Below are positions 22,590 through 31,606 of a DNA stretch of 64,000 bases, piece after piece. The stretch is from Byssothecium circinans (taxonomy: Eukaryota; Ascomycota; Dothideomycetes; Pleosporales; Massarinaceae), in NCBI GenBank assembly GCA_010015675.1, contig ML976990.1, positions 331,327 to 395,326 on the forward strand, written 5' to 3'. Below the pieces are notes generated by a model, which was not told the DNA's origin, searched no databases, and saw nothing but the letters and a program-made list of their open reading frames with translations. A program made the translations under genes and the position numbers. The stretch's first letter is position 1; each line of letters opens with the position of its first letter.

Positions 22590-23716
22590 TCATTCCCCCC
22601 TCTCCAACCTCTTCTGATTCCTGGCCCTCTCACTACTCATCATCGTGAACCCCTCGGTAATCCCCTGCTGCAATCCACCCGTCACCCCTCTTACCAACCA
22701 AACCATTGCATCATTCACTGCTTGTCCAACCTTTCCATCGTTCATCTGGCATATCGTATGTGACAACTGCAAGCTCCCCCTTCGAAGCGCATCCGCAGTC
22801 ACAAGTCCATTGTTAACCATTCGCTGCATCAAGTTGTGTTCCCTCTCAAAGCGATATGCATGGCCGAGGAAGATCTTGAGGTATGGCAGGAGGAACTCGA
22901 TCATGACGAAGGCTTGGAAGACTGTGATTGCGATGATCTTGTGTAGTGTCGATGCGTTGGGCGGTGGTTCTTGGGCAGCCGAGGTTTCTTGCATGAAGGG
23001 AGCGATGGCCTGGTTGCAGGGCTCGTTGTGAACGATAGCGACGCTCGCTGGTGTTGCGGCTTGTAGAGTCATGATCTCTTCTGGCGTGAGTTCGGACGGG
23101 AGTCCGCGTAACAGGTATGTCAGCCCATGGATGTACAACTGGCGCGTAAGAATGGTCGAGGTCTCGTCGTCTCTGTCTGCAAGGATATGTGATTCGGCAT
23201 AGGCTTGTGTAGCAAGACTCACGCCTATGAAATATTAGCGTCGGCTACCAGCCGAGTGTCGCATCGCATACCTTGGTTCGAATACCTCCAGTTGATACCC
23301 GTCTTCTTCTCCAACACATAAAAAGTCGGTGGTGTCCCCATAGACGACTGTGGGCGTGTTGAAAAGCATTCTTGGAAAGCTATCTCTCCCTCCACAGAGT
23401 CAATGGATGTGCGAGACGAGGTCGATTGAGCACTGCCGGGTCGGGAAGTGCAGCCCGGAGATGGAGTTTCCGACTGAATCGTTTCCTTAGAGGTACTTCT
23501 TCGAGAGTGAAAGCCACTTATAGTCCGTCGTATCGATGGAATCGTGGGAATGCGTCTCTGCACAACCGCAGGCAGCACAGTAAAGATCATACTGTCTCTC
23601 TTGGACGAAGGCTTGCTATCCGCTTCAACCGAGGGTACAACAGCGGGGGTTTCAAACTCTATCGTAGGTGGCGGAGTCGGGGGTTGAGTCTGGGCTTGGT
23701 TTTGCGCGGAGGTCAT
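22590..23716 (-). CDS. Unrecognised fungal protein, 359 aa
   Basis: Two exons on minus, 23272-23716 and 22590-23224, joined through NQGVSLATQ; a canonical GTATGC donor and CATAG acceptor support the splice. I do not recognise the family. The first 130 residues are low complexity, rich in Pro, Ser, Thr and Arg (QTQPPTPPPT; a cluster of SRR and SRP motifs), and look disordered and phosphorylatable. The second half is ordered: a Leu-rich helical region, then one strongly hydrophobic segment of about 25 residues (KIIAITVFQAFVMIEFLLPY) that may be a membrane or hairpin helix, then a charged helical stretch to GFTMMSSERARNQKRLERGE. There is no signal peptide. Membrane attachment is inference. Confidence 0.75.
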
Positions 23717-24418: not shown

Positions 24419-26847
24419 CTATTCCTCCTCAAGATCCTCAGGGTAAAGCTCCTTCGCTCCGTACCCTGTCAGCACAAAAGCTGCCCAATACCTCTCTTCC
24501 CTCAACTCCGTCGCATTCTGCTTCTTCAGCTCATCGATATGATACGTAGGATTGATCACATATTCATCCTGGAAATCGTGGCTTGCGTATTCTTCCACCT
24601 CGGCAATCAGATCGCCCAACTCGTCTCTTGTCAATGTGCGCATTCTTTTCTGCGTAGTGTACAATGCCTCGGCCGGCGAGAGCGACTTTCGCAACTCTTT
24701 GTAGAACATGATCATGAAGAGAAGCGTGGCAGAATCGTCTACTGGCCAGAGACTACCAATGAAGGTCTTGGTTCCCGTAGCGAGAAGAGTATGTGCGAAA
24801 CCGACTGCACTACCAGATGCGTAGGCTCTTGATAGACCTGCAGGCTCGATCAGCATGGAGTTTTAATAACTGGAGCTTGTTCGGTGACAGCAGTATTTTT
24901 TCGTGCACGCCTCGTCTCTTGAACTAGTTGTAGGCAATTGCAAATACCACCATACGTACCGGAAACACATGAACTGAAGATAACGAGATCGGCTCTGATT
25001 GATAGCTCACGCCAATCTGATATTTCGAGCGGCTCTTGGAAGAGTTGGATGGACGAACTCATGGGAGTTTTGTGGTTGAATGTACTGTGGGCGCACAGGT
25101 GAAGAATATGAGCTCCTTCTGCCACTGACTTGAAATCGTCTCGGCTCTTCTCGTCGGCTATAAAGGGCCATTCTTGGTGTCGCCGAGCAATACAGAGAGC
25201 TTCTATTCGAGAGTAAGGAATATCTCTTAAAGCTGGCAAGTTCCTTCTTTCTTTTTCCTTGTCCTTGGGTGCATTACTGACAACCGAAATTTTGGGGCGA
25301 GCCACTTCTTCGCTCGAAGCTGCTTGTGTCTGTAGCCGACTCCATATGTTCAAGCTTGGCACTACTGTGACAGGCAGGTCGAAAAAGATGGTCCATGGTA
25401 CGTGAGCTAGCTCACCAGAGGGTATGATAATGAGCTTCGTCTTTCCGACTAGATGTGGTCGTACAGGAGCGACAACAGCATCGTCAAGGACATGGCTCAA
25501 CTTTTCCTGGCATGCGGCCGAAGCTATACGTTGGGGATCTGAGGGCCTTACATACGATCTGGACGGCCCAAGGCCAACGCGTTGTGCTGTTCGGGTTGAT
25601 TGACCTGGCTTTGAGCGTGAAAATCCCATCGTGGCATGGAGATTGTTTATGCAGTCGTGGATCTCCTTTGCGTCGACCTCGTTCCATTCCGCTAAGCGTA
25701 TACCATCAGACGTGGCGACTATGATCATGACTCCGCATGGGGGTGTTGAAGCCAGGGCATACTCTACGACGACGGTGTCGGAGGGTATGTTTGCTCTCAT
25801 TTCTTCGATGTCTCCGAGCAAGACGTCTCCAATGTGAGGATTCTTAGTCCGAGCGAACAGAATAGCTTTCCGCCAGCGTATCTGGACTTTCATGTGTGCT
25901 AAAATCGTTGCGTTCATTCGCTGAGAGAGATCGACAGAGGAGCTTGGGTCTGTGAAGGACTTGCTCATTGATTGCGCCATGGTGCTTGGTCTTGACTCTT
26001 GAGACGGCAGCATAGAAACGGGCGACTCCCGCCGATCATCAACTTGTTTATTGATATCAGAAATCGGCGCTTCTGTCGTAGGCGGTGCTGATACAGGCGC
26101 TGCGGCTGCGGCAATCAAAGAGTCTCGTTTCTTGATTGATTGCAGAGCAGCTTCAGCTACAACGCGCATGCGAATATCCATATCCCATGTACCACTTGTC
26201 CCTGCTTCGCGAGTGGTTTTCCAGATGACGTATCGCTCTCTGTCTGTTACGCTCGACCCGGAGCTTATTGAGTGAAGAAGTGAACGTGCTCGACCTTGTT
26301 CTAGATAGTACAGTGCTTGGTGCTTCCAGTCTTTGGAGGTCAAAAGTTGGCCTTTGCATTGGAAGTGACAGGGTAGTATTGGACGCCCGTTCTTGTCTAG
26401 TGGTGGGATTTTGGCGAACTTTGTGCAAATTCTGGCAGCGGAGAAGAATACATTGGCCCAATCCGAGCGATCGAAGAGCCAGATGCTGGTGTCGTGCGAG
26501 TCTTGGATTTTCTGATACAGTTCTGACGCACAACAACCGCAGTTGTAGATCTGAAGAGCATCTAGCAGAAGACAGTTTCGTCTCCGGATGGATGTTTCAC
26601 GTTCAGCTTGCTCTTCCTTCTTTTGACCCTCTTCAAGAATGTCTCGCGCCTTTGAGTCTCTAAGAGAAGCTGTTGTACTGTTCTCAACGTCTGTGTGCAG
26701 ATCGGAACGACGAAGTGGGGCTTGTTGCGGATCCTCTAGGAATCCAGAAAGCCGTGAGCGGTTCGGGGATATACTGGAATCCTGCTTACGACGATGTTTT
26801 ACTGGCACCCCTTCAGTGGGTGCTTGGCAGTGCTGGTGTTTTGCCAT
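24419..26847 (-). CDS. CHAT-domain (caspase-like) protease
   Basis: Two exons on minus, 24960-26847 and 24419-24837, 768 residues, spliced in the catalytic block (FSSCVSG|LSRAYASGSAVGF). The C-terminal 350 residues are a CHAT domain, the caspase-HetF/separase-like peptidase fold: KTKLIIIPSGELAHVPW, HILHLCAHSTF with His587 and LVIFSSCVSG with Cys627 give the expected His/Cys dyad, and FIGSLWPVDDSAT, FYKELRKSLSPAEAL and ERYWAAFVLTGYG follow. Upstream, DWKHQALYYLEQGRARSLLHSI resembles the linker after TPR arrays in TPR-CHAT proteins, but few or no TPRs precede it; the first 90 residues are polar and disordered. Sequence before the ATG (CTAAGC ... CTACAG) looks like an intron end, so more 5' exons are possible. 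It is divergent from the gasdermin-like gene at 27769. Confidence 0.85.
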
Positions 26848-27768
26848 TGCTGTAGCGTGTGAAACTTTGCTTAGTTATAGCCTGCGAGTCGATAGGGGCC
26901 ACATGAAAACTGTCCTGCTTATGTGAGTATCTTAGAAAATAATGGATGAATGCAAGCTACTTACGAGAACAGGGTGTCAAACGCGGATAGCGGCGTAGAG
27001 CGGGCGGCAAGAAGCTTGTATAAACCCTAGTAGAGCCTCAAATGTTCAGCTTCAGGCCAGCCCGTGTCATGAGATGGCAAGGCTGCGGTTTTTAATGCTG
27101 GGCGGCCGCCATTTCTGCCACTCGTCGCCAAAAGCGGTTTCTCTCGAGCCTTGCATGTTCCGGCTGCCGTATCTGGGGTGGCTTGGTCCGCACAGCTGAC
27201 GAGATGACGTATTGTAGCTTCCCATCGGGCGATGCAAGTGATTCAGCCTAATCACACGGCGCAACGCGAGCGAAAGCTGAAGGCAAGGTTGATGAAGGAA
27301 TGGTAAAGAGGGCATGATAGTTGAGGCCATGTGTGGGACGACTTCTAGCGCCCGCATTTTAGCGCCCAGTAGCGCTCCTAGACTAGTCGAGTCTTTCCAT
27401 CACCATCCATCCGAATTTCAGCCTTGGTCTCATATGGGTTAGAGATTCTGACTTTTTAATTCGGAACCGAACACCTCGCAACTGCAAAAATCAGACTGAA
27501 CAATGACATCGTTCGCCCCCAGCCTGGAGCCGCCTGACGGTGTGCGACGGTCAGCCGCAAACTCGTATTATTCACCTGCATTATGGGAGCCTGACCTTCG
27601 TGGCGAAGCCTATTGCCTTCATGACCAACCCACATACATAGCCTGCCGAGTGGCGGCAGTTTCTTAAAAGTTCATGCTGTCTCGAGTCCCTCGTTTAATC
27701 TCATTCTTGCAGATAAAACTGAAAGTATCTTGATCCTGTGCAAGTTCACGTCAACAAACTTCGAAGCT
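26848..27768. promoter_or_regulatory. Shared divergent spacer of the CHAT and gasdermin-like genes
   Basis: 921 bp between two divergent start codons. At 27343-27377 the octamer TAGCGCCC occurs twice, followed by the variant TAGCGCTC. A 54-codon frame at 27502-27666 on plus and an acceptor-like TTCTTGCAG at about 27705-27713 leave room for a 5' exon of the plus-strand gene. Joint regulation from this spacer is an inference. Confidence 0.45.
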
Positions 27769-28909
27769 ATGCAGTTCCTTGGACAGCAAAAGAGAACGTT
27801 CCTACCCTACGAGCGGGGTATTCTCCCAGAAGATCTTCGGCTGGGGAGTTTGTACATAAACCCCCTCGATCCAACTGACGGTCTCGACTCAACTCGCTTT
27901 GAATACCGGGACGAGTAAGTTACCACTCAACTTCGATGCACCTTTTTCGATTTGAACAGTACTAACGGTGGTTAGCATCGAAGACCAAGAAGAATATGAA
28001 TCACATATTCGACAATGGACACGCAAAGAAGAAAAAGACGTCCCTTTCTCCATCGAATTTGAAAAATCCCAAGTCGCATCAGCAAATATTAGCTTTACAC
28101 ACTGGATGAAAGCTGGCAAGAATCGCGACCAATCAACCCATGTAACGTTGGAAGGTGCATCTGGCCGTCGCATGAAGATCAAAAGGCCAGAGAGTTTCCT
28201 TAGAGAGGTCTTTAAACAGCCGCAACTCGAACAGTGGCTCAGGATGCATGCTTCAGTAACCTATAGATCGAAGCATAGCACTCATGGAGAATGGAAAGCC
28301 CCTGAGCTGTGGCTAGTAACCGGCGTGCAGTATGTAACTGGCGGCGCATTTCACTTCGAAGGCAACTTCTCGACTGCCACCTCGGCGGGAGCAGGCGCAG
28401 ATCTCGGTGCTTTGGCTGGAGGACCGCCTGGGGTACTCAAAGTTAAAGCAGATGCTAGCCGCGAGCGATCAAATGGTGCACAAAACGATTTCGGCCACGA
28501 AGACGAGCGTGTGTGGGCTGCGCAGTTCATGCCTGTCAAGATCGAGTATGGCCGGTTTGCGGATCCCGAGCTAAGCGTTCGGAAGAACATCATTCCCAAG
28601 ACGATATTGCAGATTCGCCTAGACGACGTACCAGATCTAGCGCCACAAGGTTTTCGAACGGGATATGAGTACTCAGAGGAAGCGAGCAGTCCACCACCAG
28701 AACTCATTGGACGTGTTGTTGCTGAGTTCGGGGATGACAAGGACGAGGCAGAAGATGATGGAGACAGTGATGACGAGGGTTTGGTGATTGATGATAGGCC
28801 CTACGTGGATGCAATACGTGACGCGAATTGGAAGCAGTACGAGCATGGTATAGAGTACCTGAGAAAGCAGAAGCAACGGCGGAACAATATTGGTCGTCAG
28901 GAGAGTTAA
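27769..28909 (+). CDS. Gasdermin-like pore-forming protein (putative)
   Basis: Two exons, 27769-27914 and 27976-28909, with donor GTAAGT, branch TACTAAC and acceptor TTAG; 359 residues. The body looks like alternating beta strands: LGSLYINPLDPTDGL near the start, RPESFLREVFKQPQLEQWL, then APELWLVTGVQYVTGGAFHF followed by a small-residue, Gly/Ala-rich stretch and GVLKVKADASRERS. The L-x-V/L-V-T-x-V block plus an alanine-rich hairpin recalls the gasdermin N-terminal domain. Residues from about 300 form an acidic linker (DDKDEAEDDGDSDDEG), then a basic helix to the end, a layout like the short inhibitory tail of fungal gasdermins. Its divergent neighbour is a CHAT protease, the usual partner. 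The family call is inference from pattern and context; an in-frame ATG at 27730 is an alternative start. Confidence 0.55.
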
Positions 28910-29942: not shown

Positions 29943-31606
29943 TTAAGAGCCAAATGTACGCACGTATTCAAACCATGGCACATTCCGCGTGCCATCCGAC
30001 TTTTTGCGGTCTTCCCATGTCTTCTTTAGCATTGTGAACACGCTCCGGCGATACGATATGCCTGTAGTCGCCTTGATATGCTCCAAACACACGAGAGCGT
30101 ATTGTTGTTGGTGAGGAGAAACCGTGTCGGCGCCGGCAACAAATAGCGGGAAGAGAAGACGCTTAAAATACGGTGACTCTCGTGATATGGCTGCTGACGC
30201 GTCGAGAATGGCGCTCACGGAAGCTTTGATTCGGTCATCGGTGCAGGGAATTTTGAACGTGTCGGGAAAACGAAGTACGCGTAGTATTGCGACGTGTCGA
30301 TAGGCTTCAGCTAGCAATGTCCACTCGATATCCTCGTTCGGGTATTGTTTTTGAACAGGATCCCAGGTTCGAAGCTGTGTTAGTGTTCGGTCTAAAATGT
30401 CTTCGAATTCATTTTCAGGCATGTCGTGGGCTCTGAACTTCTTGCCAGCTGATAGAGTTTCGCCGATAGAGGTAAAGATTTCGACGGGGCAGCCAACTAG
30501 CGAGTTTAACGTATGACCCGCGGTAGACGCGACGAAGTCTCTAATGCTGGAAGGGAATGCAAGCTTCTCAGCTCCACTAAAACCTCGGAGTAGATCAAAC
30601 CTTTAACTATTAGGTCTAGTCGGAAAAGGTAAGGGGATGCTTGCCATGTAAGCGTGGTGATAAGAAAGAGCTTGCTCGGAGTCATTTTGCGAGAGCCATT
30701 TGCGAGTCGAGTACAGAGGAAAGTTACGCCGTTGAGATGCGCACCATGGGGTGATCTCCCGCAATCGTAAAGCTGTGCGATATAAGACGGTCTCCGCTGT
30801 ACTGTACAAAAGAAGCAATGAGTACTCACATCATGCAAAACTAGTATCAGAACAAGAGCTAATGCAGCCTCTTCTTCCATCTCACTTAGACCATAACTTT
30901 CCTCTTTTAACAAGAGCTCACTGAGGGATTGGATCGCTGCAAGTCGGTACTGAATCGCAGCTGTGAACAAGGGGTGTTTTGGTTCCGTGCCTGGCTTCGC
31001 TATGTGACACGCAGTCAAGCCAAGAACAGCTTTTAATAGCCCTGTATGCTGATATGCTAGGGGAAGGATGAACATCTCGAATGGATTTGGCGTATTTTGG
31101 GAGGTGATCCATAGACTTTTACACACGGTATCCTCATCTGAACCGATTAGTCTTGCGAAGTTGAGACACGTTGGCACATACAATACAGCAACAATTCTCG
31201 TTCTTGATCAACCTCGGATGGTTGAGTATTCCGAGTAGAATCGGCTGTATGCGAGCTGACCGGCAAATCGTCCATGCTGTCTGCAGTACACTGCGATATG
31301 GTTTCCAGTGCTTTCGTATCGGTCGCTTTCCTAATCGACGCCCTGGTTTCACGTTCGGCTTTCGCGCTACTGCGCGTCTTCCGGAGAGCGCCATTCTTCA
31401 TGTCATACATTTGAATGTTCAACTGATAGCCTTCGCATACCAGCCCGTGATTGCGGCAGCGCAAGCATGTTGGACGCGTCCGATCACATTTCCGAGACTT
31501 CTTCCGACACGTGCCGCAAACCGGATCTGTGTCGGGGATGAGCGTCGGTGGACACGAAGTGAAGACAGCGAAGCTTACCCGTGCGGCGAGTCACTGCTGA
31601 TGGCAT
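29943..31606 (-). CDS. Zn2Cys6 transcription factor with an apparent frameshift
   Basis: Fungal binuclear-cluster regulator. Exons on minus: 31579-31606, 30830-31526, 30645-30772, 29943-30600. The second exon gives DPVCGTCRKKSRKCDRTR... with spacing C-x2-C-x6-C-x6-C-x2-C-x6-C, then a basic region. The rest resembles the fungal-specific regulatory domain: NPFEMFILPLAYQHTGLLKA, LGLTACHIA, SPHGAHLNGVTFLC, WFDLLRGFSGAEKLAFP, and the terminal NVPWFEYVRTFGS. Near 31181-31185 the cluster frame (...RELLLY) and the regulatory-domain frame (YVPTCLNFARL...) do not join: skipping the two bases 31182-31181 would restore them. Either a 2-nt insertion has broken the gene or a poor-consensus intron (about 89 nt, donor GTGTAC) removes it. 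The intron before WFDLL has a GC donor. An upstream in-frame ATG exists at 31705. Targets are unknown. Confidence 0.75.
30601..30644 (-). other. GC-AG intron in the Zn2Cys6 gene
   Basis: The 44-nt intron starts GCAAGC, not GTAAGC, and ends TTAAAG. Splicing it out restores ACATG|GTTTGAT = T-W-F-D-L-L-R-G-F-S-G, a conserved phrase of these regulators. GC-AG introns are a small minority in fungi. Confidence 0.7.

Follow-up and report, generated by a model that had tools for sequence, protein, structure and literature searches.

A candidate two-gene cell-death module of a gasdermin-like protein and a CHAT protease in Byssothecium circinans

A 64,000-nucleotide stretch of the Byssothecium circinans genome (Dothideomycetes, Pleosporales, Massarineae), hereafter the window, is part of contig C14 of the 48.4-Mb assembly and carries two divergent genes, one encoding a CHAT protease and the other a gasdermin-like protein (Table 1). 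Their start codons lie 921 bp apart, as the initial annotation of this DNA had stated, and the region between them presumably holds the promoters of both. Joining the two exons of the gasdermin-like gene gives a protein of 359 residues, which is identical (100%, full length) to the NCBI protein CC80DRAFT_52932 of B. circinans, and a search of the Byssothecium genome found the gene in one copy only, as these two exons. The VVT-type block, Ala/Gly-rich hairpin and charged tail ascribed to this protein at the outset are recognisable: an LVTGVQYVTGG block precedes a stretch rich in Ala and Gly (about residues 162-201), and the tail beyond residue 276 is acidic. The splice model of the CHAT gene gives a protein of 768 residues with the expected dyad, His587 and Cys627, and it matches Pfam CHAT with an E-value of 1.1e-42, scoring 147 bits where the cut-off is 24. 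The NCBI model, CC80DRAFT_52949, has 728 residues, 40 fewer near the start, which fits an extra canonical intron of 120 nucleotides at 26789-26670; in its numbering the dyad is His547/Cys587.

The gasdermin fold of the 359-residue protein is well supported by a predicted model, whose best fold matches are gasdermins (VIA rows 1-22 are all gasdermin entries), with fungal RCD-1 nearest. This is the structural comparison that the initial annotation had asked for, and it agrees with its assignment. The match to RCD-1-2 stops at residue 269, and the predicted pore-forming core spans about residues 7-269. When a profile of the family was compared with the PDB sequences, rcd-1-1 ranked first, weakly (E 0.078 and 0.15), while phmmer with the single 359-residue sequence did not find gasdermins in the PDB. 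No gasdermin model of Pfam or PADLOC matched the family members, and the family escapes Pfam detection.

Relatives of the protein were collected by a single-sequence search (49 proteins) and by a profile search that scored only the candidates sharing most words (72 proteins), the union being 76 with the window's own. A taxonomy look-up places Byssothecium, Massarina, Kalmusia, Tothia and Zopfia in the Dothideomycetes, Oculimacula in the Leotiomycetes and Xylaria hypoxylon in the Sordariomycetes; the profile search adds Nemania, Aspergillus felis, Orbilia and, weakly (E 3e-11), Cladophialophora, and we take all the named members to be ascomycete fungi. The A. felis member, P0131, comes from a 31,209-base contig. 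Two members bear other names in public records, 'Metacaspase-1 protein' (P0047, Rutstroemia) and 'MACPF domain-containing' (P0027, Rhynchosporium secalis); the first label looks wrong, since nothing in Pfam matches P0047 at E 0.001, and the second denotes a related but different fold.

The CHAT family comprises 29 proteins, from a search that scored part of the candidates and lists 90% clusters. In their alignment the catalytic His and the catalytic Cys are each present in 28 rows, the remaining row being a gap: the Kalmusia model P0054 lacks the stretch that bears both residues, through either a gene-model error or a real loss, and its gasdermin neighbour is full length. Because close relatives of both proteins occur in many fungi, the two are real and more than chance. 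CHAT is the sole Pfam match of the Byssothecium protein at E 1, the separase model Peptidase_C50 not being matched, and phmmer against the PDB gave no match at E 0.01. In the PDB the family profile retrieved, through its N-terminal part, a designed helical protein (E 2.8e-4) and the transglycosylase SLT70 (E 0.32) and nothing else. An N-terminal region present in 20 of the 29 family members is absent from the Byssothecium protease. A tblastn search of the 921-bp gap with the 29 family members found no credible trace of it, the best match (E 0.13) stemming from a P0064 segment that already aligns within the CHAT gene. With this region missing, the trigger or the receptor for it may differ in the Byssothecium lineage.

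Other CHAT matches of the Byssothecium genome include long open frames at C26:61459, C1:700625 and C12:14400 (855, 3044 and 1384 residues) and matches with internal stops, from introns or decay, at C48:298969, C1:714086 and C42:63760. Within about 1.5 kb of these loci, the span checked, no gasdermin of the present family was found (E <1).

To compare the two families, 75 of the gasdermin-like proteins (P0120 was left out) were set against the 29 CHAT proteins, pairing being judged from source contigs of equal size and from locus tags rather than from measured gene distances. Thirteen pairs share contigs of equal size, among them those of Byssothecium, Massarina, Kalmusia, Zopfia, Paraphaeosphaeria sporulosa, Cadophora, Tothia, Oculimacula and Glonium, and four have consecutive locus tags: Kalmusia (N0V90_005841/005842), P. 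sporulosa (DPSP01_005487/005486), Cadophora (IFR05_011242/011241) and Oculimacula (VTL71DRAFT_5583/5582). One pair is on a contig of 7972 bases, and the Glonium pair on one of 23,192. On contigs of at least 20 kb, 12/38 gasdermins and 12/19 CHAT proteins are matched by equal size; in a rough check for coincidence, none of 40 more distant CHAT rows shares the size of a gasdermin contig. Judged by these records, the CHAT partner recurs with the gasdermin family in Dothideomycetes and Leotiomycetes, and the pairing that the initial annotation had proposed to look for in related genomes does recur. Over the 13 pairs the distances between partners are correlated (r 0.816, p 0.0001), with a mean identity of 46% in both families, a pattern in keeping with co-inheritance that is no demonstration of interaction. 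The single gasdermin copy and the partner distances that track each other suggest a long-kept unit. As for the other protease class found beside fungal gasdermins, contig C14 carries none of the 24 S8 (subtilisin) matches of the genome.

The C-terminal part of the gasdermin-like protein begins with a junction element, D269-L270-x-x-x-G274-x-R276, which starts where the RCD-1-2 match ends. The first alignment, of 49 rows, shows G274 and R276 as invariant; in a wider one they are kept in 31/34 and 33/34 rows, respectively. A WAAQF-type anchor is found in 71 of the 76 family proteins, the other five being short or partial sequences, and downstream of it the full junction element is present in 67 of the 71; two more have Ala for Gly, Glonium retains only the junction Arg, and P0145 lacks it. 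Beyond R276 the alignment and the predicted model show a variable, acidic segment (about 277-322) with pLDDT near 30, probably a flexible linker, and then a conserved helical tail (helices 323-358) whose Trp334 is kept in 46/49 rows. The family tail has a median length of 77 residues past the junction, and that of Byssothecium has 83 past R276.

In animal and bacterial gasdermins cleavage takes place in the linker behind the core. Separase and gingipain R, both clan CD proteases, are described as accepting Arg at P1 (PMC4626109), and a flexible junction with a conserved Arg would be a fitting substrate for a protease of this clan. We regard R276 as a possible, tentative cut site for the CHAT protease, a lead, and it could equally be a structural clip. 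Three points speak against an Arg-specific cut. The position of separase D2151, which binds the P1 Arg, appears to correspond here to Leu628 (Cys+41), with Leu in 24/29 rows; this assignment rests on the equal spacing from the Cys to the LW block in the Chaetomium separase, whose catalytic residue we take to be Cys2110, and in Byssothecium's own separase, and on a weak HHalign alignment (probability 2.5%, E 0.018). Bacterial TPR-CHAT is reported to have Lys at the position of D2151 (PMC9729208). Finally, three Craspases are described as cutting L|D, M|K and A|S, the Jettenia enzyme tolerating substitutions around its site (PMC11106740). The idea of an Arg-specific CHAT enzyme of the separase kind appears weakened.

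Table 1 Features of the gasdermin-CHAT locus and its surroundings (positions in the window)
Feature	Position	Strand	Content	Basis
Gasdermin-like gene, exon 1	27769..27914	+	Residues 1-48 and part of 49	Splice model; identical NCBI protein
Gasdermin-like gene, intron	27915..27975	+	GTAAGT...TTAG	Splice model
Gasdermin-like gene, exon 2	27976..28909	+	Remaining predicted pore-forming core to about residue 269, DLxxxGxR junction 269-276, acidic and probably flexible linker, helical C-terminal tail 323-358, stop	
Divergent intergenic region	26848..27768	.	921 bp between start codons	
CHAT gene, first part	24960..26847	-	CHAT domain as far as catalytic Cys, preceded by N-terminal helical region	
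CHAT gene, intron	24838..24959	-	GTACGT...CTGCAG, directly after catalytic SSCVSG	Same break in tblastn with relatives
CHAT gene, last exon	24419..24837	-	Remainder of CHAT domain, SLWPVDD block, stop	
Open frame downstream of CHAT gene	22593..23222	-	No Pfam match at E 0.001	
Frame adjoining gasdermin-like gene	30509..31183	-	Fungal_trans_2 transcription-factor domain	
Open frame of 1751 residues	32507..37762	-	Ser/Thr-rich, LPSRVSxVxSSVQSE-type repeat units	

Besides the pair, the window holds a transcription-factor frame, around which the frames overlap, suggesting introns or decay, and a long repeat-bearing frame that perhaps encodes a cell-surface protein (Table 1).

Taken together, the two genes very probably form a fungal module for regulated cell death. 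In the proposed mechanism the C-terminal tail would hold the N-terminal pore-forming core inactive, and the CHAT protein would act as a clan CD cysteine protease with a fold close to separase and to CRISPR TPR-CHAT. Upon a trigger, the protease would cleave the gasdermin near the junction of core and tail, and the freed core would enter the cell's own membranes, oligomerise and kill the cell; the module may also serve in defence. In Podospora anserina, one gasdermin is described as being activated by a TPR-bearing CHAT protease (PMC12881547). Of the gasdermin genes of fungi, about 80% reportedly cluster with protease genes and 19% have a CHAT gene no more than 10 kb away (PMC10197012), and about 17% of the partner proteases are reported to bear CHAT (PMC10989679). 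In the pairing, 26 gasdermins on long contigs have no CHAT match, a real gap even though the CHAT list comes from a search that scored part of its candidates, and Didymella, Stagonosporopsis, Ascochyta and Boeremia have the gasdermin with no CHAT family member among those listed.

Gasdermin-CHAT two-gene clusters have reportedly been described by Clave et al. (2022), including a P. anserina pair (PMC10197012, PMC12881547, PMC10989679). The published clusters resemble ours in the gene pair, the short C-terminal tail and the ascomycete host, and the Byssothecium pair appears to add another family to them; a point of difference is that the Byssothecium protease lacks the N-terminal region seen in 20 of the 29 CHAT family members. 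Roughly 1900 fungal gasdermins have been published, and the present family may be among them; our literature search found no paper linking gasdermin with Byssothecium. Two systems had been named initially as protease-cleaved gasdermins. For HET-Q1 of P. anserina this holds, as a protease removes its short C-terminal fragment; the protease, HET-Q2, is of the subtilisin type, whereas the Byssothecium neighbour is a CHAT protease, and het-Q1 and het-Q2 are idiomorphs (PMC10197012, PMC12881547). For Neurospora crassa RCD-1 (PDB 8jyx, 8jyy and 8jyz) it does not, activation being described as the co-expression of two antagonistic allelic variants rather than cleavage (PMC10197012, PMC12881547). The Byssothecium protein differs from RCD-1 in being about 100 residues longer, with its 83-residue tail and its protease neighbour. 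Another fungal locus tied to cell death, hetB of Aspergillus fumigatus, likewise encodes a CHAT protein (1327 residues); the locus has idiomorphic alleles, of which the second codes for 149 residues, and the target of the CHAT protein is described as open (PMC11138114). The A. felis gasdermin member suggests a candidate partner class for hetB, with no linkage evidence. Unlike bacterial TPR-CHAT/Csx29 (Craspase) and eukaryotic separase, the present module has, to our knowledge, no CRISPR or cohesin link.

These comparisons bear on other explanations of the pair. It may be a heterokaryon-incompatibility (allorecognition) locus, at which polymorphic alleles or idiomorphs of the gasdermin, the CHAT gene or both would kill after fusion of unlike strains. 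Gasdermin het systems are known in rcd-1 and het-Q, and the hetB CHAT protein is reported as an allele (PMC11138114); the single genome copy and the tracking distances of the 13 pairs point instead to a long-kept unit, which is compatible with allelic diversity and gives no evidence for it. A pair recurring across two fungal classes fits a general defence or death module at least as well as allorecognition, which we consider unlikely. It is distinctly improbable that, instead of killing, the module serves secretion or membrane remodelling through pores that are reversible or directed to organelles: secretion has been raised as a possible role of such clusters (PMC12881547), but RCD-1, HET-Q1 and the Podospora CHAT-linked gasdermin are all described as cell-death proteins. 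We judge it very improbable, too, that the gasdermin is active without cleavage, through heteromeric activation as in RCD-1, with the CHAT protein acting elsewhere or as an inhibitor. The nearest solved relative is indeed described as not protease-activated, but the RCD-1 variants have 257 and 244 residues, and the present family extends further, into a tail that follows a low-confidence, probably flexible linker. Such an arrangement would be expected if the tail is cleavable, and a protease gene adjoins. A beta-rich pore-former of the MACPF/CDC type is scarcely tenable and was rejected as the primary fold, as neither MACPF nor CDC is among the Pfam matches of 49 family members at E 1 and CDC/MACPF rank below the best gasdermins in the fold comparison.

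On the main reading, that of a gasdermin-CHAT death module, proteins called hypothetical in public records, one of them MACPF and one metacaspase, become recognisable as a fungal gasdermin family, and R276 at the junction offers a precise candidate cleavage site. The observations can also be joined into a more specific reading, which is doubtful: a separate gasdermin branch would have been long kept with its own separase-like CHAT protease that cuts after R276, and in the Massarineae (Byssothecium, Massarina, Kalmusia and Paraphaeosphaeria) this protease would have lost an N-terminal sensor region, possibly TPR-like. Without the sensor region, another triggering route would be needed there. 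If the more specific reading is true, the death switch of these fungi would be built on a protease akin to the one that cuts cohesin, and its scissile site would be conserved, in contrast to the Craspases, whose known sites vary between orthologs.
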